33,040 bases of DNA. It comes from Flavobacteriaceae bacterium (GTDB taxonomy: Bacteria; Bacteroidota; Bacteroidia; Flavobacteriales; Flavobacteriaceae). A model generated the notes under the pieces. That model made no database searches. It was not told the origin of the DNA and saw only the letters and a program-made list of their open reading frames with translations. The DNA lies in assembly GCA_017851655.1 (NCBI GenBank), contig JAFMMH010000014.1:1-33040 (forward strand), given 5' to 3'. The position numbers and the translations under genes were made by a program. The number at the start of each line of letters is the position of its first letter. Position 1 is the first letter of the stretch. Below are positions 13,615 through 28,618 of the stretch, piece after piece.

Positions 13615-13839
13615 CTATTTTTTTAAAATTTGAAAAACTTTCCAACCCACTAATCCGACTAATATGTATGGAATCGCCATGAGGTAAATTATTCCATTAT
13701 TAATTCCCTTTGCTGTAGCTTGTCCTTCTTCAGATTGAAGTACAGCTCTACACATTGAACATTGTGAATAGCCAATATTGTATCCTAAAACAAAAAGGAC
13801 TAGAGTTAAAAAGACAATGATTTTAGCTCTTTTATACAT
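13615..13839 (-). CDS. Small CxxC membrane protein in the oxidase assembly cluster
   Basis: I do not recognise a named family. The 74 residues show a signal-anchor segment (about 6-24), then CSMC (Cys27, Cys30) right after the hydrophobic stretch. A short soluble part (QSEEGQATAKGINNG) and a second transmembrane helix (about 50-70) follow, with a basic end. The Cys pair would face the periplasm if the first segment is a cleaved signal. The start overlaps the DUF420 gene by 8 bases, so it is translated with the Sco1/DUF420 unit. A role in copper or thiol handling for cytochrome oxidase is inference from the motif and the neighbours. Confidence 0.8.
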   Translation of the reverse strand: MYKRAKIIVFLTLVLFVLGYNIGYSQCSMCRAVLQSEEGQATAKGINNGIIYLMAIPYILVGLVGWKVFQILKK

Positions 13840-14365
13840 AATAAGGAGATATCATCAGATAAACTATCACTCCTGTTACAGCTATATACATCCATATAGG
13901 AAAGGTATAACGTGCAATTTTTTTATGCTCTACAAATAAATTTGAAATTGCTCTAACGTAGGAAATTAATACCAGAGGAATAATTCCAATAGAAAGCATA
14001 ATATGTGTGATCAAAATAAAATAATATATGAATCGAATTGCGCCTTCACCACCATAGGGTGTAGGATCAGAAGTCATATGATAAGCTACGTATAATACTA
14101 GAAAAATTAAGGAAAGTCCTATGGAGATTTTCATCAGTTGCTTATGCAACGTAATGTTTTTATTTCGAATCGCTATATATGCGATTAACAACAATAAAGC
14201 AGTAATACCATTAATAGTTGCATAAATGGGAGGCAAAAAGCTTAGGGGTGCTACATTGGGAATACGGATCATAAACAAAAGTGCAACTACAACCGGTATA
14301 AGTATAGAAATTACCCAAATCCAGACTCGATATTTAGAAATATAATTTATGTTTTCATTACCCAT
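13832..14365 (-). CDS. DUF420 membrane protein (YozB/CtaM-like oxidase maturation factor)
   Basis: Integral membrane protein, 177 residues, with about five helices (roughly 13-33, 44-66, 79-97, 112-137, 152-172). The family is DUF420; its member CtaM is needed for an active heme-copper oxidase in Staphylococcus aureus. Four histidines, His74, His96, His121 and His147, lie at or near helix ends and could bind heme or copper, though this is inference. It starts 4 bases after sco1 and overlaps the next small gene, so it belongs to the oxidase maturation operon. Confidence 0.87.
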   Translation of the reverse strand: MGNENINYISKYRVWIWVISILIPVVVALLFMIRIPNVAPLSFLPPIYATINGITALLLLIAYIAIRNKNITLHKQLMKISIGLSLIFLVLYVAYHMTSDPTPYGGEGAIRFIYYFILITHIMLSIGIIPLVLISYVRAISNLFVEHKKIARYTFPIWMYIAVTGVIVYLMISPYYV

Positions 14366-14369
14366 TTTA

Positions 14370-15071
14370 CTATTCTTTTAAAAGCTTTTTAATATCCTCT
14401 ATTAGTAAATCAACTTCTTGGATTTCAACATGCTCTTGATCAAGACCCATATAATAGACTATGGGATTATTAAACTGATCTGTTCGTGAGCGAATATTTC
14501 CTTTTTTATCAATCAAAGCAAAATAGCCCTGATGCTCGAAACCACCTTCTACTCTTGGATTTACCGATGCAAAGATATTAAATCCCTGATTTGCAAGTGC
14601 ATAAATTTTTTCTTTATCCCCAGTCAAAAAATGCCAGTTCTGAGAAAAAACATCATAACTTTCTGCATATTCTTTTAATACAGATGGCGTATCGTGTGTT
14701 GGATCAATAGTGAAAGAAGCTATTCCAAAATCAGATCTAGAACCAAATTGGGCCTCAATTTTCTTCATGTTTTTATTCATGATTGGGCAGATACTCGGAC
14801 AAGATGTAAAGAAAAATTCAACAACGTATACCTTATTTATAAAATCTTCATTAGAAATAAACAAGCTGTCTTGATTCAAAAAGGTAAACTCCGGAACTTT
14901 TTTAGCCTCCCCATTTAATACAATGTATTGCAATGGCTCTGCAGTCTGAGACCTTTCATTTTTTACTATAGAATTGGTTTGTACCCTATCGATGATTTTT
15001 GGAATAAAGAGTATTCCGAAAATAAGAATTACCAAGAAAAGACCAATGTATTTGAACTTGAACATCTTCAT
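14370..15071 (-). CDS. SCO1/SenC/PrrC copper metallochaperone
   Basis: Delivers copper to, or reduces, the CuA site of cytochrome c oxidase subunit II. The 233 residues have one N-terminal anchor (about 8-24) and a periplasmic thioredoxin fold with the copper ligands Cys91 and Cys95 (TSCPSICPIM) and His180 (FEHQG). The family motif TIDPTHDTP is at about 121-129. The start forms a TAATG with the stop of the upstream Sco-like gene, so translation is coupled. All metal ligands are intact, unlike in the upstream paralogue. Confidence 0.95.
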   Translation of the reverse strand: MKMFKFKYIGLFLVILIFGILFIPKIIDRVQTNSIVKNERSQTAEPLQYIVLNGEAKKVPEFTFLNQDSLFISNEDFINKVYVVEFFFTSCPSICPIMNKNMKKIEAQFGSRSDFGIASFTIDPTHDTPSVLKEYAESYDVFSQNWHFLTGDKEKIYALANQGFNIFASVNPRVEGGFEHQGYFALIDKKGNIRSRTDQFNNPIVYYMGLDQEHVEIQEVDLLIEDIKKLLKE

Positions 15072-15724
15072 TATTTTTCTCTACTTGCATTATAAATTTT
15101 TAATGCTAAACGATACTCTGCAAGGATCACTTTAACATCATCTATCATTTTTTTATTGATTTGAGCAACAGATCGGGCATCAAAACCATAAAGGGTACCT
15201 TCCTTCTCATCATCGTTTCTTCCTCTGAGATTACCGTCCTTGTCTATTATAAAAACATAGGGAGTGCTTCCAGACTGATCCAATGTAAATGGGGTTTTTA
15301 AGGATTGGAAATGAGCTTGCATAGATTCCTTTGTGACCGATACAAAATTCCATTTTGAAAGATCAGTACCCACTCCTTCTTTAAGCGATTTTTTTAATGA
15401 TTCAACTTCATCCTCAAAAGCTTCATTTACCATGAAAACAAATTGAAAATCCTCAAATTCATAGAATCTCTTGTAAATTTTCTCATTAAGATTCAATGCC
15501 TCTGCTTGTTTTTCCTCTAAACTTCCTCCCCAGTATCCAAGGATGGTAATTTTATCTTTAAAAGTAATAAGAGTATCCAATGGTTTTATTTCACTAATAT
15601 TCTCAGTGAGAACCGGCAATTTTGCAAAATTATTTTTACCTGATGCAAAAAAAAGATATACTAAAAGAGGAAAAATGAATAAAATTCCTAAAACAATTTT
15701 CTTATTCAAATCTTTCTTTTTCAT
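15071..15724 (-). CDS. Cysteine-less Sco/thioredoxin-like membrane-anchored protein
   Basis: Membrane-anchored protein of 217 residues from the ATG at 15724. One helix (about 10-27) is followed by a thioredoxin-like domain. Where Sco1 has the Cys pair, this protein has GYWGGSLEEKQ with no cysteine, and the copper His is missing. Its C-terminus matches Sco1 closely in pattern: DKDGNLRGRNDD against DKKGNIRSRTDQ, then LYGFD against YYMGLD. It is therefore likely a degenerate Sco paralogue. An upstream in-frame ATG at 15745 lies within a hairpin arm and would add MCHRFFF; I reject it. The role is unknown; an oxidase-assembly function is inferred from context. Confidence 0.82.
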   Translation of the reverse strand: MKKKDLNKKIVLGILFIFPLLVYLFFASGKNNFAKLPVLTENISEIKPLDTLITFKDKITILGYWGGSLEEKQAEALNLNEKIYKRFYEFEDFQFVFMVNEAFEDEVESLKKSLKEGVGTDLSKWNFVSVTKESMQAHFQSLKTPFTLDQSGSTPYVFIIDKDGNLRGRNDDEKEGTLYGFDARSVAQINKKMIDDVKVILAEYRLALKIYNASREK

Positions 15725-15771: not shown

Positions 15772-16155
15772 CTAAAAGTTCCAGGAGACAAATCCTGAAT
15801 CCATTACTTCGAATATATAATCTGCTTCAATTAGCAAAATGAAAGCGAGATAAGGAATGAGAATCAATAAAGGCAATACGATAGAATTTTTCAAGCCACT
15901 TCTTTCGTCTCTGATATGCATAAAATCCCATGCAATATAGTATGCTTTGACAATCGTTAAGATGATAAAAATCCAATTGAGAATTTTCATGCGTAAAAAA
16001 GACACCATCAAGGATTCTGGTTTTATAATACCAAGTGCCACTTCAATGGTTGTGACTATGGAAAGGAATATAAGCACTCCCCATATCTTTTGTTGATTTG
16101 ACTTGAACTTTAAAAGTCCTCTGAAAATTGCTAATTTATGTCCTTCTGCAGCCAT
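15772..16155 (-). CDS. Cytochrome c oxidase subunit IV family protein
   Basis: Small accessory subunit of a heme-copper oxidase, 127 residues from the ATG at 16155 (MAAEGHKLAIFRG). Three transmembrane helices are visible (about 25-44, 55-75, 92-113), with the family pattern KAYYIAWDFMHIRDE between helices two and three. The frame is open upstream to an ATG at 16230, but that would overlap the subunit III gene and lacks the expected start, so I use the start 17 bases after the subunit III stop. It closes the cox half of the cluster and is followed by a hairpin. Confidence 0.88.
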   Translation of the reverse strand: MAAEGHKLAIFRGLLKFKSNQQKIWGVLIFLSIVTTIEVALGIIKPESLMVSFLRMKILNWIFIILTIVKAYYIAWDFMHIRDERSGLKNSIVLPLLILIPYLAFILLIEADYIFEVMDSGFVSWNF

Positions 16156-16172: not shown

Positions 16173-17147
16173 TTATACGAGATAGAAAAAGGTGAAAACA
16201 AATACCCAAACTAAATCGACAAAGTGCCAATAGAGTCCGACTTTTTCTACCATTTCATAATGTCCTCTTTTTTCGTAAGTTCCTAAGATGACATTAAAAA
16301 AGATAATAATGTTAATGACGACCCCAGATAATACGTGGAATCCATGAAATCCAGTAATGAAGAAAAAGAAATCAGCAAATAAACGATTCCCATACTCGTT
16401 GTGAACAAGATTAGCTCCCTCTACGACAGCTACCGCTTCATTTACCTTCGCTAAAGATTCTGATCTAGACAAAACCGTTTTCTGTCCATTTTCATCAAGA
16501 AGCTGCGTTCGAACAACTAAATTTTCATCTTCTATAAAGCCTTTTTTAACTTCAGCAAGAGCTACTGTAGGTAATGCCGTTTCACTTTGATACCAGATAC
16601 CATTACTTGGTTGGTGTGTCGCGCGATCTGTTTCTACTCCAATGGCAAATTCTTGTATTGCAGCTCTTTTTCCTGTGGTGGTGTCTACAAATTGTAAAAT
16701 TTGTCCTCCACGTGTTTCAAGAGCGCCGTATTCACCTTTGATAAAATTTTTCCATTCCCATGCTTGAGATCCAACAAATATAGCACCCCCAATGATGGTC
16801 AAAAGCATATAAAAAGTAACCTTAGATTTTTGCATGTGGTGACCTGCATCTACTGCAAGTACCATCGTTACTGAGGAAAAGATCAATACAAATGTCATTA
16901 ATGCAACATAATACATGGGTGCATCAATACCGTGTAAAAAAGGAAAGTGGGTAAAAACCTCATCGGCTATAGGCCATGAGTTAATGTTTTTAAAACGTGA
17001 AAATCCATAAGAAACTAGAAAACCTGTAAAGGTCAGGGCATCAGAAACAATGAAAAACCACATCATCAATTTTCCATAGCTCGCGTTTAGAGGTTTATTT
17101 CCTCCTCCCCAAACTTCTTCGTTCTCAGCGTTTACTGTTACTTCCAT
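16173..17147 (-). CDS. Cytochrome c oxidase subunit III (long form)
   Basis: Subunit III of a heme-copper oxidase, 324 residues. The core helices are present: about 26-48, 79-100, 109-128, 258-290 and 303-323. Conserved features include Glu131 in SQAWEW, GFHGFHV (His268, His271) and the final YWHFVDLVWVFVF. An extra hydrophilic segment of about 115 residues (roughly 138-255) is inserted between SQAWEW and the next helix; I recall similar long forms in Flavobacteriaceae. A shorter subunit III gene lies 36 bases upstream. Confidence 0.93.
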   Translation of the reverse strand: MEVTVNAENEEVWGGGNKPLNASYGKLMMWFFIVSDALTFTGFLVSYGFSRFKNINSWPIADEVFTHFPFLHGIDAPMYYVALMTFVLIFSSVTMVLAVDAGHHMQKSKVTFYMLLTIIGGAIFVGSQAWEWKNFIKGEYGALETRGGQILQFVDTTTGKRAAIQEFAIGVETDRATHQPSNGIWYQSETALPTVALAEVKKGFIEDENLVVRTQLLDENGQKTVLSRSESLAKVNEAVAVVEGANLVHNEYGNRLFADFFFFITGFHGFHVLSGVVINIIIFFNVILGTYEKRGHYEMVEKVGLYWHFVDLVWVFVFTFFYLV

Positions 17148-17183: not shown

Positions 17184-17762
17184 TTAACCGTAGAATGAAA
17201 CGAATAAAAATAAATATAGCCAAAGTATATCAAGAAAATGCCAAAAAGTAACCGCCAATTCAAAACCAAGTGTATTTCCTTCAGAATATTTTCCTTTTAA
17301 AGTCCTAAACAGTACATAGGTAACAATAATAACACCACCTGCAAGATGTGCCAGATGAAGTAATACCAAAACATATAAATAAGAAGTCGTAATAGAACTT
17401 TCTGCCCCAGTGAAATAATAACCCTGTTCAATGATTTCTCCAAATCCTTGAAATTGAAAATAAACAAATGCAAAGGCTAAAGCCAAAGTGATTAAAAGTA
17501 GTGATTGAGCTCGTTTTTTTAATTGCTCTTTGATACTCTTAAACGCTAAATAAAAAGTTCCACTACTACAAAGCATCAGTAGTGTACTCAATGTAAACGC
17601 AAAGGGTAAGTCAATCTGTTCAATCCAATCTGAACGAGAACTACTGACCACATAGGCGCTAGTTAAACCAGCAAAAGTCATGCTCATACTGATCATACCG
17701 AACCAAAGCATCATTTTCTTGGCTCGATTATTCTTTACGATTAAAGAGTCGTTTGTGTTCAT
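17184..17762 (-). CDS. Cytochrome c oxidase subunit III (short form)
   Basis: Second subunit III-type protein, 192 residues with five hydrophobic helices (about 17-38, 51-72, 85-103, 125-148, 168-190). Family signs are SYLYVLVLLHLAHLAGGV (two-His region before a glycine pair) and the final TFWHFLDILWLYLF. Its start overlaps the cyoE stop by four bases (ATGA), so translation is coupled. It is distinct from the long form and has no large insert; both may serve the same oxidase, but this cannot be settled from the window. Confidence 0.92.
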   Translation of the reverse strand: MNTNDSLIVKNNRAKKMMLWFGMISMSMTFAGLTSAYVVSSSRSDWIEQIDLPFAFTLSTLLMLCSSGTFYLAFKSIKEQLKKRAQSLLLITLALAFAFVYFQFQGFGEIIEQGYYFTGAESSITTSYLYVLVLLHLAHLAGGVIIVTYVLFRTLKGKYSEGNTLGFELAVTFWHFLDILWLYLFLFVSFYG

Positions 17763-18661
17763 TGTAATATAAATTTATCAAGTACATAAATCAGCTGAAT
17801 TCCAGTAATGTATAGTATACTTGCTCGAATTAGAAATCTTGCAGCTTTATCTGATTTTTTAGACATTAATTGAATTCCAGAATAGATGAAAAATATTCCT
17901 AAGAGTCCAACTAAAATCGTAGCGGGTAATGTTAGATAAAGTTTTCCTGTGTAATGAAAAGCGGGCAATAAAGAAATTAATACCGTCCAAAAGCTATAAA
18001 ATACAATCTGAAAAGCTGTAATCTGATCTGGATTCCCAGAAGGTAGCATTTTAAACCCTGCCTTTTCATACTGACTATGCATAACCCATCCTATAGCCCA
18101 AAAATGTGGAAATTGCCAAAAAAACTGAATCATAAATAAAACTCCAGGTTCTATTCCAAATTCATTGGTAGCAGCTACCCAACCCAGCATAAAAGGAATC
18201 GCACCCGGAAAAGCACCAACGAAAACAGATAGGGGTGTTTTTTGCTTTAGGGGGGTATACAAACATGCGTATAAAAAAATTGAAATACTTGCAAAAAAAG
18301 CAGTCTTCATATTGATAATATATAAAGAGCCTATTCCAATCAATGTCAGTATTACTCCAATAAAAAGTGCTGTATTAGGATGAATTCTATTTTTGGGTAA
18401 CGGTCTATTTTGGGTACGCTCCATCAATTTATCCAAATCTTTTTCAAAAACTTGATTGAATACATTAGAAGCTCCAACCATAGCATAGCCCCCTATGGTC
18501 AATAATAAAAGAGTACTATAATTTACCACATCTACAGCTAGGAAATACCCAGCTATAGAAGAAATAACTACAGACACAGATAGTCTGACCTTTGTAAGCT
18601 CAGTAAAGTCAGTGATATTAAACCCTGTAAGTGAAAGCAATTTAAAATTATTTTGGCGCAT
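17759..18661 (-). CDS. cyoE: Protoheme IX farnesyltransferase (heme O synthase)
   Basis: Membrane prenyltransferase of the UbiA family that adds a farnesyl group to heme b, making heme O for heme-copper oxidases. The 300 residues have the first acidic motif NVFNQVFEKDLDKLMERTQ, the following NRPLP, the second region PLKQKTPLSVFVGAFPGAIP and eight or nine helices. I use the ATG at 18661; the base triplet before it is a TTG that would add one Met. A Bacteroidota-type promoter lies just upstream, and this gene heads the cox operon. Confidence 0.95.
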   Translation of the reverse strand: MRQNNFKLLSLTGFNITDFTELTKVRLSVSVVISSIAGYFLAVDVVNYSTLLLLTIGGYAMVGASNVFNQVFEKDLDKLMERTQNRPLPKNRIHPNTALFIGVILTLIGIGSLYIINMKTAFFASISIFLYACLYTPLKQKTPLSVFVGAFPGAIPFMLGWVAATNEFGIEPGVLFMIQFFWQFPHFWAIGWVMHSQYEKAGFKMLPSGNPDQITAFQIVFYSFWTVLISLLPAFHYTGKLYLTLPATILVGLLGIFFIYSGIQLMSKKSDKAARFLIRASILYITGIQLIYVLDKFILQ

Positions 18662-18681
18662 CAACCCTCATCTTCATTTTG

Positions 18682-18760: not shown

Positions 18761-19480
18761 CTAATTTTGAAGTCTAAATACAATCGGTATACTAAACGGA
18801 ACCCGAACAGCACGACCTCTTTGTTTTCCGGGTGTCATTTTTGGAAGTTTAGAAATAATTCGTTGTGCTTCTTTTTCTAAGTTCTTATCTGGTCCACGCA
18901 TTCTGATATTCGTAATACTTCCGTCCTTGGATATTATAAAATTTACATATACACGTCCCTGAATTCCCATTTCTTGAGCAATTTCAGGATAACGGAAATT
19001 ATTTCGAATGTGTTTATTTATCTGTTCTTGAAAACAAGCTCTCTGTTCTGATTTCTTCACTCTTTCACAACCAGGAAAAATTGGAACATCTTCAATAACT
19101 GCAAAAGGAACATCTACTTCTTCTATTTCCTCTTCAATTTCAACATCTTCTACTTCAATAATTTCTTCATTATCTGTTTCAGATGATTCTATAATGGTTT
19201 CTTCCACTTCTTCTTCATCTTCTACAATTTCTATTTCTGTTGTAGCCTGAACTGGAGTTGGCGGCGGCGGCGGCGGGGGCGTTTTTAATTGTTCCGTAAT
19301 CGGAATTTCTTCATCATCATCGTCACTAACGTTAACTGATTGATAGTCAAAAAACACTTTTTCATAGGTTCTCCACTCAATAGCACGCCAGGATATAAAT
19401 AAAATGAAACACAAACCAATCACAAAATAGAGTGATGAGTTTTTTCTTAAATCGACCTTGGGGTTTTTTTTTATTTTCAT
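18761..19480 (-). CDS. TonB-family energy transducer (downstream copy)
   Basis: Inner-membrane-anchored protein that transmits proton-motive force to TonB-dependent outer-membrane receptors. The 239 residues have a cytoplasmic basic start, one helix (about 17-31), the EEIPITEQLKTPPPPPPP linker, then a very acidic Glu/Val stretch (about 80-125) and the TonB C-terminal domain (about 155-239). The C-terminal domain has RYPEIAQEMGIQGRVYVNF and ends in FRLQN. A Cys pair flanks its start (FPGC and RACF), common in Bacteroidota TonB proteins. The C-terminal half is nearly identical to that of the neighbouring paralogue. Confidence 0.93.
   Translation of the reverse strand: MKIKKNPKVDLRKNSSLYFVIGLCFILFISWRAIEWRTYEKVFFDYQSVNVSDDDDEEIPITEQLKTPPPPPPPTPVQATTEIEIVEDEEEVEETIIESSETDNEEIIEVEDVEIEEEIEEVDVPFAVIEDVPIFPGCERVKKSEQRACFQEQINKHIRNNFRYPEIAQEMGIQGRVYVNFIISKDGSITNIRMRGPDKNLEKEAQRIISKLPKMTPGKQRGRAVRVPFSIPIVFRLQN
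18784..19114. repeat. Direct repeat copy A (C-terminal half of tonB, downstream copy)
   Basis: This segment aligns without gaps, at a fixed offset of 823 bases, to 19607-19937. Most differences are single bases, and long runs are identical, for example the stretch from GTTCTTATCTGGTCCACGCA onward. The similarity falls sharply in the acidic linker coding part beyond 19115. Confidence 0.85.
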
Positions 19481-19586: not shown

Positions 19587-20300
19587 TTATTGCAAACGAA
19601 ACGTAATTGGAATACTAAAAGGAACTCTAACGGCACGACCTCTTTGTTTTCCGGGTGTCATATTTGGAAGTTTAGAAATGATTCGTTGCGCTTCTTTTTC
19701 TAAGTTCTTATCTGGTCCACGCATTCTGATATTTGTAATACTTCCGTCCTTGGATATTATAAAATTAACATACACACGTCCCTGAATACCCATTTCTTGA
19801 GCAATTTCAGGATAACGAAAGTTTTTACGAATGTGTTTATTCATCTGTTCTTGAAAACAATCTCTTCGTTCTGATTTCTTCACTCTTTCACAACCAGGAA
19901 AAATTGGAACATCTTCAATAACAGCGAAGGGAACATCAACATCATCAATTTCTTCTTCGATTTCCACTTCTTCTACTTCTACAATCTCATCCTCATTCGT
20001 TTCTGTTGATTCAATTACAGTTTCTTCCACTTCTTCTTCATCTTCGACTACCTCAATTACTTCAGGAGCTGGAGGTGGCGGTGGTGGCGGTGGTGGCGGT
20101 GTTTTGAGTTGTTCTGTGATTGGAATTTCCTCATCATCTTCATCTTCTACGTTTAAGGCTTCGTATCCATAAAGACTTTTATCGTAAGTTTTCCATTCGA
20201 TAGCCTGCCATGATATAAGCAGGATTAATGCTAGTCCAATGACAAAGTAAAGACTGCTGTTTTTACTTAAATCAACTTTTTCATTTTTTTTGGGTTTCAT
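19587..20300 (-). CDS. TonB-family energy transducer (upstream copy)
   Basis: Same architecture as the downstream copy: 237 residues, one helix (about 17-31), the EEIPITEQLKTPPPP linker with a longer proline run (ten prolines, then Ala-Pro), the acidic region (about 82-125) and the TonB C-terminal domain with the FPGC/RDCF Cys pair. From about residue 125 to the end only a handful of residues differ from the paralogue (for example ERRDC for EQRAC, KLPNM for KLPKM). It is followed by a strong terminator and preceded by an inverted repeat. Confidence 0.93.
   Translation of the reverse strand: MKPKKNEKVDLSKNSSLYFVIGLALILLISWQAIEWKTYDKSLYGYEALNVEDEDDEEIPITEQLKTPPPPPPPPPPAPEVIEVVEDEEEVEETVIESTETNEDEIVEVEEVEIEEEIDDVDVPFAVIEDVPIFPGCERVKKSERRDCFQEQMNKHIRKNFRYPEIAQEMGIQGRVYVNFIISKDGSITNIRMRGPDKNLEKEAQRIISKLPNMTPGKQRGRAVRVPFSIPITFRLQ
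19607..19937. repeat. Direct repeat copy B (C-terminal half of tonB, upstream copy)
   Basis: Partner of 18784-19114 at a fixed offset of 823 bases with no insertions or deletions visible. Identity includes many third codon positions, while the flanking 5' halves of the genes differ freely at third positions. Confidence 0.85.
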
Positions 20301-21145: not shown

Positions 21146-24100
21146 TTAATTTCCAAAGTTATAACGTACAGTAAATCCAGTTCGAATACTTGTTTGAGGA
21201 AATGCAGTAGAAATTGCAAATTCAGAAAAATTATGGTCATAAAAGAAAAGGGCTGTTAGATTTCTAGACAAGGCATAATCCGCTCCAATTTTTATGGCTA
21301 ATAATCTTTGGCCTGCAGTAACCTGATTGTTGTCGAATTCTAAATTTCTCAACACTGTTATATTGTCTCTATAAGATAAATCAGCTTTTATATTTAAATC
21401 TCCTTTAAGTGTAACTCTTCGACCTCCAAAGTTCGTTCTAAAACGAAGATCTTTCACACGATAACCTAGACCTACAATGTATTCATCTCCATTAGATTCC
21501 GTTATTAGATTATTATCTAAACTCAATGAAATAGCACGTTCTTTTCGAAGTTCAGCGAGTAATTTTAAGGAATTATTCATTTCCATATCCAATCGGATCA
21601 AGGGGTTGAATTGTTCTACCAAATTAACATTAGAATACAATTTCTTAGGAATAACATTCCCTAATTTATCTGTTAGATTTGGCTGATCGGGATCAAAATC
21701 AAAGTTGGTTTGAAAGTTCGTTAAAGTATAGCTTGCTCTATAGGCATGGTTTATTGATAAACGAGAAAATATTTTCGAAATTGATTTGAAATTTGTCAAT
21801 CCTGTAAATTTTAAATTCCAATTTGGTAGTGGTACGCTTTTTATCGTATTGAGTTCAATTTGTTCTGGATTTGCACCCGAATAAGCTGCTATAAAGGAAT
21901 GTAAGAGAACTTCTTGCTGATTTTTTCCAAACCCTAAAGGATAACCTTCTTCATTTTTACCTAAGTTCGCAAGAGTTGTATTTTGAGCTAATCGCTCGGC
22001 AATCTGAAAACGAAATGATCTGAAATTTTCAAAATTACTATTCATTGCTCCCCTAGAAGGTTTAAAGGATGTACGAAGTAAAATGGTTGACATTCCAAAA
22101 TTTCCAAAAACATTTGAATTTCTAGGAATATAATTTTGATCTGAAACTCTAAAATTTTCCATGCGATTTTCCATATAATCACGTTCCGCATTAAAATCAA
22201 TTATCAACCCTTTCAAGGGAACTACTTGAGCCGTTGCTTTAAACTTACTCGAATGCATTTGAGTAAACGATTGATTAAAACTAGGATAACCTGTCAACCA
22301 CCCCTGCCTTGCGGCCTCATAGCGAATATCTGCTTGGCTCCCTAAAGTGTAGCCTAAAGTAGGCATAAGCCCTCCAGCAAAACCAACTGAAGGTAAATAT
22401 CCCGGCAGCACTGAACCATTATTCTCACTATAACTCATCTGGACTCGCTTAATTAAAGTCAAAACATCTACTAAACTTGTTAAACTCTTTTTCAGCAGTG
22501 GATTCTTTTTAGCAAGTGTGTCGTTTGGTTTTCTTGCTGCTTGTGTTCTAGAATTAAAAGGATTTTTGGAGGACTTTAATCCAAGCACGGAGTATAATTT
22601 AGCAAAAGAAAATGCTGCTGTCAAATTTTTAATATTGTTATTCTGAAGTGTGTTCACAATACCTAAAGGAATCCCTTCCTCACTAAATACATTTGCTAAT
22701 GCTTCAGATCCCCGTTGCCAATTAAAATTTCCTGTATAATTATATGTTGCATCTACAAAACTCAAAAACGGTATGTACTGAAAAGGAAGCTTGTAATTTA
22801 ATGTAAGTGTTTGGAGATGATTATTGGGTTCGCCCATGTCCAAAAGCCCCTGCCAAAGGGCATTATTATCTGGCTGAAAAGAGTTTGATAATTCATTCCC
22901 CATTAAGTTATTCTGACGGATAATACTGCTGGTAGTGGCATTGAAATTAAAACGGAGAGAACGAGTCAAATTATGACTGAGGGCATAGTTATAATCAAAT
23001 AAGAAATTACGTTGTTGTAGATTTGGTAAACTGCGTTGTAAAGAAGTATCTAGACCCTCCAAATATACTTGTCTAAATTTTTGATTATTCAAAATTCGAT
23101 TAACATTTGCTGAAGCCTGCAATGAAGTTGGCAACAAATTAAAGTTGAGTTGCTGCAACCATTGCCAGTATTTTTTCCGATTAAAAAACTTGATTTTTTT
23201 AAAGGGCTCTAGAGGTTTAGAGTTGAAGGAGTATCCATAATTGGAACCGATTAGCATATTAAATTCTTCCTGTCTCTCTATTTCGTAATCACGGTGAAGT
23301 AATTCATTGTAAGCATAAGAAAAATCAAAATTTTCAGGATTATAAAATCGGGAAGTACCGCTTCCACTACTATTTTTTCTTATCCCAATCATGCTTATGC
23401 TTTTCCTTCGTGTGTAATCTATCGCCTGACTTCTTATCGAATCTTTCTGTGTGGCTCTCTGAGCAGTTTCAAGCCGGTCTTCCAACCTTATGTCCTGATA
23501 AAAAGGGTCGTATTCAGGTGTGATGTACGTTTCTCCGTTAGCAAAACTCAAGGGCAACTGTAGCCCCCATTTTTTTGGAGTAAGTTGTCCTAAATTTACG
23601 TTGGCAATAACATCATATTGGAGAAATTCTTCACGAGTTCTTTCATTTGGGGACTGGTCTATACTCCCAAATCCTATACTTGAATACCTCCCAGTTGCAG
23701 AGAAAGTTGCGAAATCCGCAAGGTTTCCGTCAAGAGCTCCTACAGCAGCCCATCCTCCTTGACTATCTATACCCGAAATCCGCAATTCGTTAAACCAAAC
23801 CTCTCCACACAAAACATCTCCGAGCTGTGTTGATGGATTTTTAACTCCTATCATTAGAGTTTTTATACTCCCCAACGAAGGGTTTCCTCGAATAGCAAAT
23901 TTGTATTTTTTAGCTCCTGGAAGTTGACTGATCGGCGAAAACTCCTGAATAGGGTTAAGCTCTTCATCAAAATATAAGGTCTCCCCCAAACCTAGTTTTT
24001 GAAGCGCAATGGCCTTTAATTTTGCGAGTAAGTCTATTGGCACTTCTATAGAATTCGATTCTGGATTCCAAACCTCTTCTGAGGTTAGTCTATTAGATGT

Positions 24101-27100
24101 ATTTTCAATGTATTCAGAAGGTTTTAATGGAATTTCAATTTGATAATAATTATCTTGGTAATCCGTTCCTAATCGAATAAATGCGACCATTCGTCGATCA
24201 AACTCATCATTCGAACCTTCTCCAGGAAGTGGGTTTTGACCCGGAAGGGATTCTGCATGTAAAAACATTCTGAGTTTACTATATTGCCGCATATCCAAAT
24301 TCAACCCTTTAAAAATTCCACGAGAATCTGAGGGTTGTAAATCACATACTCTAAAAGATAAAGATTGTTCGTTTTGACGAATTATTGAATTGTTATTGTT
24401 GATCTGTTCTCTTTGAATTTCTGGGGGTAAAACATAGTTTATAGGAATCCTGTTTTCGTTTTCTAAAATATTTACAGTACTGATATCTACAGTAGTATTA
24501 TTATTCATTAAAATATCTTCATTGAGAGATTTATTATACCTCCTCCAATCTCCTCTTACCAGATCTAATGTGCCAAAACGGAAAACGACATCCTGCTTAA
24601 AACCTGTGAGAAGCATCCGCATAAATCGGATAGACCTAAGGTCATTTATTGCATTAATCGCATCGAAATAGGTGCTAAAAGAAGTATTCTCATAATAACT
24701 TTTCTGAATAGGAATCTTGAACTGAATCCATCTTGTGGTATACTCATCCCCATTGGGTGCTTTCACTTTCACGTTTTCCCTGACGTCAGTTACAAAAGGG
24801 TGGTTTCCCACCTGCATTCCCTTCCCAATTGGAACCCTATATTCAAAATAACTATCTATAGTATTCATACTCTGATCCCTATTGATGTCTTCTGTATCAG
24901 GTTCAGTGGTATTCCCTCTGTCAGTATCGCTAAAGGCTATAGGCGTATTGTTTTCGAATCCATTATATTTTTTATAACGATCTAGGATCCCTCCTTCTGC
25001 CTGTAAGAAATATTCATAATTATCTCCCGCCGGATCATCAGGGGGTCCATTAAAATAAATAACTTTTTCTTCTTCATCTGTCAACCCGTCTAAACCAACA
25101 TCTTGTAAAATGCGATCTTCTTCAATGGCATTGAATGCATAAACTAGAGACTGGTTCGCTGGCACTTTACCCCAAGTGGTATTGTAGGTTGGTGTGCTCT
25201 CACTTAAACTGGGAAGTCCATTTTCAAATTGTTTCCTCCCATCTCGAAGAATATCCTCAGAGATATTCCCTAAATGAAATACCAATTCTCCAAGCTCGTC
25301 CGAAGATGATTCCTCATCAGAAAAAGTGTCTAATAGCCAGAACTCAATAAATTCTACATTAGATTGCTCAAAATTTGTAGCGTTAATGGAACGACTAATT
25401 CCTGCCCATTTTTCTGAAGTATTAAGCGAAAATTCATCTTGAGGCGCATTATTATAAGGGCCTCTTTCTTTAGGATAATAAGCTAAATCTAACGTAGGGA
25501 GTGTTCGGGGTGTCCCTTGAACTAGATCTTGTTCTGGAAATAACTCGTCAATAAATATTCGTCGGGTTTCATTCAAAGAAATATCATCATTATTAATTCC
25601 ATCGGGCTGTCTAGAATAAAAAACTTGATCAATTGAATACCAAGCTAGCTTAGACCGTCCGTATCCACTTTCAAGTCCTTCTAAAGAAGCCCCAGGGACT
25701 CTGTTAATTGGAACACTCGAAAGGCTCCATGCAATAAACCCTTTAATGTCAATATTCGTTTGTGCTCCTTCAAAATCATCGATATAAACATTGGTCTCAC
25801 CATTCAATTGTGTATTCCTAGGATCATTTGCGGCTAGATTTGCCATCTCCCCACGAAAAGAGAGTTGAGAAGGAATATTAGTCGAAATTGTAGGCCATTT
25901 ATTTACCAATCGTGTTAAAAAAGGAAGTTCAGTAGAGATGTTTGTGTTGACACCCATCATCGTATTGTTCACAGGCTCAGTCCCGTAATTTGCCTTTTGG
26001 GTAAGTGGGTTTTCGCTCAGATTTATCAAAGTACCTCCGATATTGATTTTATCTGAAATGCGATGGTTCATATTAATTCCAGAAAAGCGTTTGTTTTGTT
26101 GGTTAAAAAACGAATTGTTTTCTACTGAAATATCAATTGGAATATTTGAAGCTTTAAGCCCTTCATCTAATATTTTTACACGCCCAATTTCGTAATTGAC
26201 TATATAATCTAATCCCTCTCTGAGTACTCTTCCTCCTGCGGTAACACGAACAGATCCCCGGGGAACATTAAAGGCTCCAATACTGATCCCATCACCACCT
26301 TCAGACTTATACCTCCCTTTTAATTGAAATTTATTTTTTTCTGTAAACTCAAGCGCTGCAGCCTTGGTTAAATCATACATCTCTCTGAAGACATAACGCT
26401 TTTGATTTTTGTTGTAACTACTTTCCAGACTGTAGTTTTCTTTTGCAGAGTTAGGATTCTCTAAAAGGTTAAATAAAAATTCTCCGAACGGCTCTACTTT
26501 AGGAAAAATAATTCTTCCATAACGAGGATCTATTGTGATCCCAGGAATATAATCAAAAAAACCATCCCCACTTGGGACTAAATCTTGATAGGCGTTTAAT
26601 CTATCTAAATCCATAGTATTTAGTAAAACTTCCTTATCTAAGTTTTCTGGCCATATTGATGCATCAACCGGAGTAAGATAGTTTATTGGCGAGGGATCAG
26701 TATATAAAATACTCAACCTAAAGTCTTCTTCAGATAGCTGGAATGCTCCAGTATTGTATATATTTTTCATCATTAAATCCCAAACGGGTTGGCGTACATC
26801 CGTAACACTGCTCTTTAGCATTTTAACGATTAAATTATTCGTCTTAACAACTGCCTGCTGATTGTTTTGAGGTGAAGTATTCCCAGAAGAAAGCAGTGAA
26901 GTTCCTGGTATATCACCATTGGCAAATTCACCCACTTGATATATTCTCCCTTGATAACTGTATTGGTATGCAATACCTAAAATTTCGTCATTACTCAATC
27001 TTTGATTTAAAGAGATATAACCTAACTGAGGATGGAAGGTAAACTCTTGATTACTCAACTTTCTAGCACTTTCTAAAATTGCATAATCATAACCTTCATT

Positions 27101-28618
27101 CGCTTTTATTGCGCCGAATCCACTTTTGACCGTAGCAATATCACGAATATCCTCTGTCAGTAATCCATCTAAGCCAATTTCATCTGGATCCAAACGATTC
27201 ACCTCATTACTTGGAGGATAATTTGCGCTCCCCACAGAGATGAAATTTGGAACACGATCCGCCAAGTTAGTTCGCTCTGGATTTGCTTCCCCCAAATCCT
27301 GAAGCGCAATGATATTTCTAACATTTTGGGTTTGATAGCCCCTATTTGTTACCCAAACTTCAATTCGTGTGATTTGAACTGGAGAATTGATATAGGGATA
27401 GGTTTCCAAAAAAGCATCATAATTATCTCTAAAATATTGACTTATAAAATAATGTCTGTCCTCTTCATAATCTAAGGCATACAAATTAAACTCTTGAAGT
27501 TTTCCTCCACCTTGTGTTGTTATATTTTGAGATTGTGAACGCTGTTCAGAAAAAACCCCTGAAAGTGTTGTATTTCCAAATTTCAAATCTGCCCGTACTC
27601 CAAAAAGACTTTGAGCACCTTGAATTAAGTTACTGTTAATAGGCATACTGATATTTCCTATATCAATATTCTGAAGAATGGCATCTTCTGTAACTTTTCC
27701 TTTTAAATAATCTGCAACACGATTCCCAACCATTTCAGTACTGTTGGGTAATTGATTGACGTTTTGCTTTAAACTCTCAATTTTTTGTCTTGCTTGGTTC
27801 AAGGTATTTTTTCCTTGATTTATTTTTTGCTGTACTTCATTAACTTCTTGTTTTATATCGGATGCAGTGCTTTTAACTTCTTCAAATTTATCTTGAATTT
27901 GTTCAAAAGAAGATCCCAATTCTCCAGGAAGTAAACCAGGAACAACGTCTTGAAGCTCTGAAAGCTGAGGAGGATTGAATTGGATTTTTACCAAATTCTG
28001 AAAATCAAAAGTAGATTCCGTATCATAATTCGCAGTAATCTGAAGCCGCTCCCCTATCTTCCCTAATAAACTTAAACTAATTCGCTGATCGAATTCAAAA
28101 CCTGGGGATCGTCTATTGATTACAGAGGCTATGGGATTATCGTTTTTTTGATAACGGTAACCCAAATCGATTCCAATGGATCCCTGTGGAGCTATATCTA
28201 TTGCATTACTACCAAAAATTGATTCAAAGAATTGATTATTGACATATAATTCGGGAAGCAAGTTTTTTTGACTATCTGCTACGTTTTCTCCCCGACCACT
28301 CAAAGCCTGTACTTTTTCTTGAAAATAAGTCTGCATTTTTTCCTTTAGGACCAATGCTTGGTATTCTTGTACTGTTAAAACTAAAGGGATACTTATCGGG
28401 TAACCTCCAATTTCTTGAGAAAAAATATAGCGATTACTATCAGGATCATATTTGTATTGACTTACTACACTTGAAGGATTGGGTAAACTAATCTCTCCTA
28501 AATCAGCCTTTTCTTGATCCTGAGCTAGTACAATACCACAGCCCACAAGCATCCAAATAAAACAAAGGATGAGCGTTTGGGGTACTTTAAATAGTAGTTT
28601 TTGTTTTATTACAAACAA
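21146..28618 (-). CDS. sprA: SprA, translocon barrel of the type IX secretion system
   Basis: Giant outer-membrane beta-barrel that forms the protein-conducting channel of the Bacteroidota type IX secretion system, needed for surface adhesins, secreted enzymes and gliding. The product has 2490 residues, within the family range of about 2400-2500. A signal peptide covers about 1-33, and the N-terminal plug/barrel motif DLGYRYQKNDNPIASVINRR (about 151-170) is followed by many aromatic beta-strands to the end. An unusual hydrophilic segment at 216-309 holds a coiled-coil-like stretch (236-290). The start is 6 bases after the ruvA stop. Gliding itself cannot be inferred from this gene alone. Confidence 0.96.
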   Translation of the reverse strand: MFVIKQKLLFKVPQTLILCFIWMLVGCGIVLAQDQEKADLGEISLPNPSSVVSQYKYDPDSNRYIFSQEIGGYPISIPLVLTVQEYQALVLKEKMQTYFQEKVQALSGRGENVADSQKNLLPELYVNNQFFESIFGSNAIDIAPQGSIGIDLGYRYQKNDNPIASVINRRSPGFEFDQRISLSLLGKIGERLQITANYDTESTFDFQNLVKIQFNPPQLSELQDVVPGLLPGELGSSFEQIQDKFEEVKSTASDIKQEVNEVQQKINQGKNTLNQARQKIESLKQNVNQLPNSTEMVGNRVADYLKGKVTEDAILQNIDIGNISMPINSNLIQGAQSLFGVRADLKFGNTTLSGVFSEQRSQSQNITTQGGGKLQEFNLYALDYEEDRHYFISQYFRDNYDAFLETYPYINSPVQITRIEVWVTNRGYQTQNVRNIIALQDLGEANPERTNLADRVPNFISVGSANYPPSNEVNRLDPDEIGLDGLLTEDIRDIATVKSGFGAIKANEGYDYAILESARKLSNQEFTFHPQLGYISLNQRLSNDEILGIAYQYSYQGRIYQVGEFANGDIPGTSLLSSGNTSPQNNQQAVVKTNNLIVKMLKSSVTDVRQPVWDLMMKNIYNTGAFQLSEEDFRLSILYTDPSPINYLTPVDASIWPENLDKEVLLNTMDLDRLNAYQDLVPSGDGFFDYIPGITIDPRYGRIIFPKVEPFGEFLFNLLENPNSAKENYSLESSYNKNQKRYVFREMYDLTKAAALEFTEKNKFQLKGRYKSEGGDGISIGAFNVPRGSVRVTAGGRVLREGLDYIVNYEIGRVKILDEGLKASNIPIDISVENNSFFNQQNKRFSGINMNHRISDKINIGGTLINLSENPLTQKANYGTEPVNNTMMGVNTNISTELPFLTRLVNKWPTISTNIPSQLSFRGEMANLAANDPRNTQLNGETNVYIDDFEGAQTNIDIKGFIAWSLSSVPINRVPGASLEGLESGYGRSKLAWYSIDQVFYSRQPDGINNDDISLNETRRIFIDELFPEQDLVQGTPRTLPTLDLAYYPKERGPYNNAPQDEFSLNTSEKWAGISRSINATNFEQSNVEFIEFWLLDTFSDEESSSDELGELVFHLGNISEDILRDGRKQFENGLPSLSESTPTYNTTWGKVPANQSLVYAFNAIEEDRILQDVGLDGLTDEEEKVIYFNGPPDDPAGDNYEYFLQAEGGILDRYKKYNGFENNTPIAFSDTDRGNTTEPDTEDINRDQSMNTIDSYFEYRVPIGKGMQVGNHPFVTDVRENVKVKAPNGDEYTTRWIQFKIPIQKSYYENTSFSTYFDAINAINDLRSIRFMRMLLTGFKQDVVFRFGTLDLVRGDWRRYNKSLNEDILMNNNTTVDISTVNILENENRIPINYVLPPEIQREQINNNNSIIRQNEQSLSFRVCDLQPSDSRGIFKGLNLDMRQYSKLRMFLHAESLPGQNPLPGEGSNDEFDRRMVAFIRLGTDYQDNYYQIEIPLKPSEYIENTSNRLTSEEVWNPESNSIEVPIDLLAKLKAIALQKLGLGETLYFDEELNPIQEFSPISQLPGAKKYKFAIRGNPSLGSIKTLMIGVKNPSTQLGDVLCGEVWFNELRISGIDSQGGWAAVGALDGNLADFATFSATGRYSSIGFGSIDQSPNERTREEFLQYDVIANVNLGQLTPKKWGLQLPLSFANGETYITPEYDPFYQDIRLEDRLETAQRATQKDSIRSQAIDYTRRKSISMIGIRKNSSGSGTSRFYNPENFDFSYAYNELLHRDYEIERQEEFNMLIGSNYGYSFNSKPLEPFKKIKFFNRKKYWQWLQQLNFNLLPTSLQASANVNRILNNQKFRQVYLEGLDTSLQRSLPNLQQRNFLFDYNYALSHNLTRSLRFNFNATTSSIIRQNNLMGNELSNSFQPDNNALWQGLLDMGEPNNHLQTLTLNYKLPFQYIPFLSFVDATYNYTGNFNWQRGSEALANVFSEEGIPLGIVNTLQNNNIKNLTAAFSFAKLYSVLGLKSSKNPFNSRTQAARKPNDTLAKKNPLLKKSLTSLVDVLTLIKRVQMSYSENNGSVLPGYLPSVGFAGGLMPTLGYTLGSQADIRYEAARQGWLTGYPSFNQSFTQMHSSKFKATAQVVPLKGLIIDFNAERDYMENRMENFRVSDQNYIPRNSNVFGNFGMSTILLRTSFKPSRGAMNSNFENFRSFRFQIAERLAQNTTLANLGKNEEGYPLGFGKNQQEVLLHSFIAAYSGANPEQIELNTIKSVPLPNWNLKFTGLTNFKSISKIFSRLSINHAYRASYTLTNFQTNFDFDPDQPNLTDKLGNVIPKKLYSNVNLVEQFNPLIRLDMEMNNSLKLLAELRKERAISLSLDNNLITESNGDEYIVGLGYRVKDLRFRTNFGGRRVTLKGDLNIKADLSYRDNITVLRNLEFDNNQVTAGQRLLAIKIGADYALSRNLTALFFYDHNFSEFAISTAFPQTSIRTGFTVRYNFGN

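Follow-up and report, generated by a model that had tools for sequence, protein, structure and literature searches.

A conserved Sco paralogue without metal ligands adjoins the intact Sco of a flavobacterial cytochrome c oxidase operon

The window analysed here, a stretch of 33,040 nucleotides from a Flavobacteriaceae bacterium (contig JAFMMH010000014.1), carries on its minus strand a cytochrome c oxidase operon in the order UbiA-type synthase, COX3-like, COX3, COX4, a Cys-less Sco paralogue (the target of this study), Sco and CtaM/DUF420. The features of the operon and of the target are given below, with their Pfam matches in brackets.

17759..18664, minus strand: UbiA-type prenyltransferase (PF01040, 1.1e-55)
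17184..17762, minus strand: second COX3-like subunit (PF00510, 1.3e-14)
16173..17147, minus strand: cytochrome c oxidase subunit III (PF00510, 1.7e-12)
15772..16155, minus strand: cytochrome c oxidase subunit IV, COX4_pro (PF03626, 1.1e-13)
15071..15724, minus strand: target, Cys-less Sco paralogue of 217 residues, with ATG at 15724 and the stop included
15644..15718, minus strand: predicted N-terminal membrane helix of the target, residues 3-27 (AlphaFold2 helix H3-27)
15608..15640, minus strand: juxtamembrane motif GKNNFAKLPVL of the target (residues 29-39), which corresponds to GKHNFxxLPY of the operonic single-copy Sco
15506..15520, minus strand: residues 69-73 of the target, the site of CxxxC (C91, C95) in the active Sco by profile alignment, here L69 and Q73
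15266..15268, minus strand: S153 of the target, at the position of the ligand His (His180 of the active Sco) by profile alignment
15080..15169, minus strand: C-terminal helix of the target (residues 186-215), including the tail LAEYRLALK, which is absent from the active Sco
14370..15071, minus strand: intact Sco (SCO1/SenC; PF02630, 1.4e-28), with CPSIC and the ligand His, a different anchor and no tail
13832..14365, minus strand: CtaM (DUF420), oxidase assembly factor (PF04238, 1.1e-43)

From its operon context, the UbiA-type prenyltransferase at 17759..18664 is probably the haem O synthase CtaB. Elsewhere in the source genome there is a COX2 match away from the operon (E 6.3e-5, over the cut-off), as well as a further, unlinked Cys-bearing Sco at G000:C127. 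Several other features of the region were observed. The COX3 protein appears by eye to contain a big extra stretch at about residues 130-240, which lies outside its best Pfam stretch (256-323) and is variable among related loci. The oxidase genes are bordered by two very similar TonB-like proteins in tandem (18761-19480 and 19587-20300, minus strand; TonB_C 9.2e-19 and 1.8e-18), with linkers rich in Pro and Glu. An open stretch of about 75 residues lies 3' of ctaM (13615-13842, minus strand); it apparently encodes a small membrane protein and matches no Pfam family at E up to 0.01. Finally, a minus-strand open reading frame of 2490 residues (21146-28618) presumably resembles the gliding/type IX secretion protein SprA.

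The target lies directly upstream of the intact Sco, which is followed by ctaM. Its TAA stop (15073-15071, minus strand) overlaps the ATG of the intact Sco as TAATG. This coupling, proposed in the original prediction, is real at this locus but is not general: when start codons are taken mechanically, the two genes lie anywhere between -50 and +225 nt apart, with an overlap in 58 of 131 pairs. The protein has no Cys and a single His in its 217 residues, and the AlphaFold2 model (mean pLDDT 86.6, pTM 0.77) predicts one N-terminal helix, which is conserved and common to operonic single-copy Sco. The Sco-like C-terminal pattern that had been claimed for the target can be read from its translation, as DKDGNLRGRNDD plus a YGF loop.

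Recognition of the target as a Sco depends on profile-to-profile and fold comparisons, as it has no Pfam match and PF02630 (SCO1-SenC) does not recognise it. Searches of the target against Pfam, NCBIfam, PHROGs and PDB sequences, and of 54 relatives against NCBIfam, returned nothing informative. Among these 54 relatives, weak Pfam matches (E up to 1) were to AhpC-TSA (11), Redoxin (9) and Thioredoxin_8 (6), and SCO1-SenC is not one of the 25 families listed out of the 26 matched. A less diverged Cys-less copy, at locus L151 of genome G193, reaches SCO1-SenC with E 0.0023 and 18.3 bits (cut-off 22.8) and scores better against AhpC-TSA (3.2e-5, 24.3 bits), also under the cut-off (26). Two Cys-less genes that stand alone (L215 and L217) are above the SCO1-SenC cut-off, at 48.3 and 59.4 bits. 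When the profiles of the Cys-less and the active Sco were compared, 148 columns were aligned with an E-value of 3.5e-6 and a probability of 87.6.

VIA-align of the target model ranks the bacterial Sco structures 4hde (Z 14.7) and 1xzo (Z 13.8) first and the next rows at 12.2, with yeast and human Sco1 (Z 12.0 and 11.8) level with peroxiredoxins. Foldseek is less discriminating: it also places Sco first, but ResA and further thioredoxin-like folds come close to it in E-value. The active Sco, used as a control, finds Sco at 1.9e-15. By VIA-align the fold of the target is thus of the Sco-type thioredoxin-like kind. A structural match to a thioredoxin-like family other than Sco was sought and the two best matches are bacterial Sco, so that such a family is ruled out by VIA-align, Foldseek alone being ambiguous. 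The profile comparison, the shared anchor and tail, and the tree described below together indicate that the target shares descent with Sco.

According to the original prediction, the Cys pair had been replaced by GYWGGS. The pair is indeed gone, but the profile alignment puts its site slightly later in the protein: GYWGGS aligns with EFFFTS, immediately upstream of the pair, and C91 and C95 themselves align with L69 and Q73. The loss of the ligand His is also borne out, with His180 aligned to S153 inside a shortened loop. Across 132 distinct Flavobacteriales copies, the His column holds Ser in 63, Gly in 41 and His in just 2, and a Cys occurs at neither CxxxC column in any copy; the first of these columns is Leu or Ile in 93 and the second Lys or Arg in 98. 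Outside the motif, Cys is sparse and scattered. Within the last 200 residues, 106 of the 132 copies have none, 24 have one and 2 have two, and the commonest Cys column is occupied in 14 copies. Thiol chemistry by leftover cysteines is hence unlikely.

The ligand-less form is widespread. Within the genus, a CxxxC-less orthologue is found in 24 of 25 genomes, the source genome included; none of these copies has an internal stop, three carry a single Cys elsewhere in the protein, and the genome without a match (G015) is 57% complete. A profile search of the order matched 167 of 296 genomes. Among the genomes listed, 63 of family f1, which we take to be Flavobacteriaceae, have a match (62 at E 8.4e-35 or better and G193 at 1.9e-9); further f1 genomes may be among 109 unlisted ones that have no match. 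The best 80 loci from the named collection include those of Maribacter ulvicola, Leeuwenhoekiella palythoae and Galbibacter mesophilus. Flavobacterium johnsoniae, a species with genetic tools and an aa3 oxidase (PMC8552683), would be expected to carry the gene too, given its presence throughout the family. Among 195 loci with Sco-like proteins, counted as collected loci after removal of duplicates, 131 have the Cys-less gene together with an active Sco, 61 have a single active Sco and 3 have the Cys-less gene alone. A Cys-bearing Sco adjoins 131 of the 132 distinct Flavobacteriales Cys-less copies, and the exception (L007) is cut by a contig edge. Cys-containing orthologues were sought in close relatives and none was found, with a Cys at the motif position in 0 of 132. 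Given this pairing, and the lack of motif cysteines throughout, the Cys-less form is not a product of local decay.

Family f1 has the tandem arrangement, as do single genomes of f10, f12, f13 and f15. Among the genomes compared, those from f6, f7, f8, f11 and f14 and one from f15 have a single Cys-bearing Sco in this position. The sister-family Sco has the same ends as the target and would represent the single pre-duplication copy. Some loci depart from this general picture. L215 (G333) and L217 (G380) lie in other families of the class, outside the order; each is a single operonic Sco that has kept the anchor and has no CxxxC, and a Cys-bearing Sco is present elsewhere in both genomes. These look like separate losses of the ligands. 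The Cys-less and active pair of L151 does not have the RSR.D..GN insertion of other Flavobacteriales, and may stem from a separate duplication event or from transfer of the operon.

A tree of 83 sequences places all 26 active tandem copies in one group, which 96% of the 200 bootstrap trees recover (93/75). For the Cys-less tandem copies, the best tree requires two changes, with 24 of 26 together (95/49) and those of L151 and L184 outside. Neither a single clade of Cys-less copies (p-AU 0.367) nor a grouping of both kinds of tandem copy (p-AU 0.139) is rejected, and neither the free tree nor these p-AU values establish that the Cys-less copies arose once. As the Cys-less branches are long, the exact node of the duplication is unsure. 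A second tree was made from active Sco only, with 25 unlinked Sco added. Of these, 24 fall in a starred group that contains no active tandem copy, and 25 of the 26 active tandem copies, that of L184 being outside, lie in a weak group (67/82) that includes the remaining unlinked sequence, L239. This unlinked Sco, from family f5, nests inside the Flavobacteriaceae active tandem copies with 100/99 support. An origin of the active copy by insertion of an unlinked Sco is ruled out by the separate position of 24 of 25 unlinked sequences, with L239 as the exception. Judging by profile, fold and tree, the target is a Sco paralogue of an old duplication.

To see how the parts of the ancestral protein are shared out between the two copies, an N-terminal model was built from 29 rows of single-copy operonic Sco only. 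All 26 Cys-less tandem copies score above the 99% shuffle score, compared with 5 of 26 active tandem copies, and the medians are 30.7 bits (lowest 3.0) and -1.1 bits, respectively. For a model of the core, the order is reversed: the active copies have a median of 189.7 bits and the Cys-less copies 26.5, with the Cys-less copy of L025 under the threshold. The C-terminal end follows the N-terminal one. Beyond the Glu of LLAEY, single-copy Sco continue for a median of 13 residues, the Cys-less copies for 14.5 and the active tandem copies for 0; 22 of the 26 active copies end at this Glu, as would be expected if the Tyr codon had turned into a stop. The tail model, which is weak by itself, lies above the 99% shuffle score in 16 of 26 Cys-less and 0 of 26 active tandem copies.

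When set against linkage, the anchor model exceeds its threshold in 2 of 38 Sco sorted as unlinked and in 15 of 19 sorted as linked. Thirty-seven of the 38 are truly unlinked, the other (L235) being the active partner in L151, cut by a short flank. The 19 linked sequences contain five active tandem copies and at least six rows of the model itself (L236, L244, L251, L253, L257 and L263), so that the figure of 15 of 19 is partly circular while that of 2 of 38 is not. The anchor motif thus goes with operon-linked Sco. The original description of the target as a degenerate copy therefore holds for the lost ligands, but not for the ends of the protein: the ancestral anchor and C-terminal tail are kept by the target and have been lost by the active copy. 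Very probably, then, the target is a conserved ligand-less Sco paralogue with ancestral ends.

Both copies evolve under constraint. Between close pairs of genomes, the median dN/dS of the target is 0.099 (20 pairs, range 0.038-0.526, including four repeats, some shared genomes and one pair at 0.526), and that of the neighbouring Sco is 0.084 (18 pairs); for COX4, CtaM and COX3 the values are 0.048 (19), 0.154 (17) and 0.039 (16). Relative to the dS of the whole gene, dN of the target is 0.057 in the anchor part and 0.069 in the C-terminal part, and is highest in the middle (0.173). The lowest mean entropies per ten residues among 54 relatives are likewise those of residues 201-210 (0.19), 21-30 (0.44) and 191-200 (0.46), followed by 81-90 (0.50). 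It should be noted that this last segment is a helix after the lost motif, and conservation is hence not confined to the ends. The Cys-less copy is kept by selection next to the active Sco. Taken together with the profile, the fold, the tree and the 131 of 132 adjoining pairs, these rates uphold the central claim of a ligand-less Sco paralogue beside an intact Sco.

Genomes of family f5 bear on the question of what the target serves. Profile searches found no COX2 and no COX3 in 9 of 9 f5 genomes, and no DUF420 in the 8 tested; since the COX2 profile is weak even in three positive genomes, the absence of COX2 would be unsafe by itself. The Cys-less profile has no match in 7 of 12 f5 genomes and a weak one in 5, of which four are the active Sco and the fifth is that of G121. 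Cys-bearing Sco were obtained from seven f5 genomes. In this family, then, an active Sco occurs where neither its twin nor the CuA oxidase and ctaM were found, so the active copy can dispense with its twin there. This pattern argues that what the twin serves is the CuA oxidase or CtaM and not Sco itself, and it does not separate CtaM from the oxidase. In a wider sample of 22 genomes of the order (20 listed out of the 129 without a profile match, plus the weakly matching G091 and G135), DUF420 is absent from 21, with G066 as the other; G026, from family f3, has a COX3 match and no COX2, DUF420 or Cys-less match.

Covariation of evolutionary rates was compared for 21 gene pairs over 148 branches of 76 species. 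The target covaries most with CtaM (rho 0.250, p 0.002), followed by Sco (0.203, p 0.013), COX4 (0.173, p 0.035) and, more weakly, the others. Of the genes compared, CtaM and the target evolve fastest. Because other gene pairs reach 0.48 (COX3-like with UbiA), the link between the target and CtaM is only a hint, and the idea that CtaM is the main partner of the Cys-less Sco must be regarded as tentative. Bacillus subtilis needs CtaM, whose function is unassigned, for both aa3 and caa3 (PMC9145763). The protein has lately been proposed to export copper that is then bound by Sco (PMC13344008).

We propose that the CuA oxidase operon of Bacteroidota had one Sco gene, placed between COX4 and ctaM, and that this gene was duplicated long ago. 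Its product would have had three parts, namely an anchor with the juxtamembrane motif, a thioredoxin-like core for copper or thiol chemistry, and a tailed C-terminal helix. The downstream copy would have retained the CxxxC...His core while its anchor became different and its tail was lost; the upstream copy, the target, would have retained the anchor and tail while losing both Cys, the His with its loop, and the pair of strands before the core. The target would then perform no copper or thiol chemistry. With its ligands lost and its membrane-anchoring parts kept, it is probably a docking partner rather than a copper carrier, fixed in the membrane where the oxidase is assembled and serving there as a dock or scaffold. 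Most likely it would present CtaM and/or newly made oxidase subunits to its active twin. Our favoured reading is that the target takes a non-catalytic part in the assembly of the CuA oxidase, by docking, with CtaM and/or the oxidase as the putative partner. That the duplication divided a copper chaperone in two, a docking Sco whose only task is to bind at the membrane (to CtaM and/or the oxidase) and a chemistry Sco as the copper carrier, is a bolder proposal, which we consider possible though doubtful. If true, the Cys-less copy would serve specifically to connect Sco with CtaM, the proposed exporter of copper, and Sco would have a second, copper-independent job.

Other readings of the same observations were weighed. 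The Cys-less copy might, in line with the original prediction, pair domain to domain with the active Sco as an obligate heterodimer, stabilising or regulating it. An active Sco adjoins 131 of 132 Cys-less genes, with overlap in 58 of 131 pairs, some rate covariation exists between the two (rho 0.20, p 0.013), and the helix at residues 81-90 after the lost motif is conserved. Nevertheless, the strongest conservation is at residues 201-210 and 21-30, and the active Sco of f5, whose representative L239 nests among active tandem copies, persists without a Cys-less partner, which argues against an obligate Sco subunit; we regard this arrangement as unlikely, and the heterodimer holding Sco1 is not supported in the form first suggested. 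The long branches and the lost active-site region would also suit a decaying pseudogene or a reading-frame artefact. Such a gene would hardly be intact in 24 of 25 genomes of the genus and across the family, and the median dN/dS of 0.099 rules a pseudogene out, which leaves this explanation next to no probability.

Two further proposals would take the target out of oxidase assembly, and both seem improbable to us. In one, it has acquired a role in redox stress or sensing, as has been proposed for the plant protein HCC2, which has no copper motif, is dispensable for the oxidase and rescues an oxidative-stress phenotype of yeast (PMC3971200, PMC6307045). The target is, however, linked to the oxidase operon and absent from f5, where the oxidase was not found, and thiol chemistry is unlikely with Cys missing from the last 200 residues in 106 of 132 copies. 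In the other, the target would belong to the flavobacterial oxidase, or to a supercomplex of it, as a small structural subunit. The position of the gene between subunit IV and the assembly genes would suit a subunit, as would its absence, together with that of the oxidase, from the f5 searches; its ancestry, in contrast, is that of an assembly factor, and its best match among solved chains has E 0.48, although the complete flavobacterial oxidase may not be among those chains.

No description of a bacterial Cys-less Sco was found in the literature searched; the Sco genome survey of Banci et al. 2007, outside that search, may mention such proteins. Bizionia argentinensis is a flavobacterium. In a survey of its copper genes, two proteins are assigned to the SCO family and one more carries a Sco-like domain; the part of the survey consulted mentions no Cys-less one (PMC11213822). 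Compared with bacterial SCO1/SenC proteins such as BsSco/YpmQ, the target has a thioredoxin-like fold nearest to theirs, one predicted N-terminal anchor, a place in an oxidase operon and the DK.G..R.R region; unlike them, it has no CxxxC, no ligand His and no strand pair before the core, and is missed by the Pfam SCO1-SenC family. Other Bacteroidota have a single operonic Sco (e.g. L207 and L028) with the anchor motif and C-terminal tail of the target and at its position between COX4 and ctaM, but with an intact CxxxC...His. Planctomycete Sco-CtaM fusions also link Sco to CtaM/DUF420, although by fusion and not by duplication, as far as their mention in PMC13344008 goes.

The closest parallel in ligand loss is plant HCC2 (AtSco2), a ligand-less Sco encoded in the same genome as a canonical one (PMC3971200, PMC6696091). 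HCC2 has neither the Cys pair nor the His, and oxidase activity is reported as normal in the knock-out (PMC3971200). In yeast, HCC2 rescues a double mutant that has neither sco2 nor sod1, and its other cysteines remain (PMC6307045). A review adds that it interacts with the metallochaperone module, calls its ability to work without copper ligands very surprising and leaves its function open (PMC6696091). The target differs in being bacterial, operonic and free of Cys, where HCC2 keeps other cysteines (PMC3971200, PMC6307045). From taxonomy, the two presumably have separate origins. The sharing-out of parts between the two flavobacterial copies points to CtaM, whose role is likewise unsettled (PMC9145763, PMC13344008), and makes a copper-independent job of Sco directly testable. 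A loss of ligands like that of HCC2 is thus found here in a bacterial operon, with the active twin adjoining.
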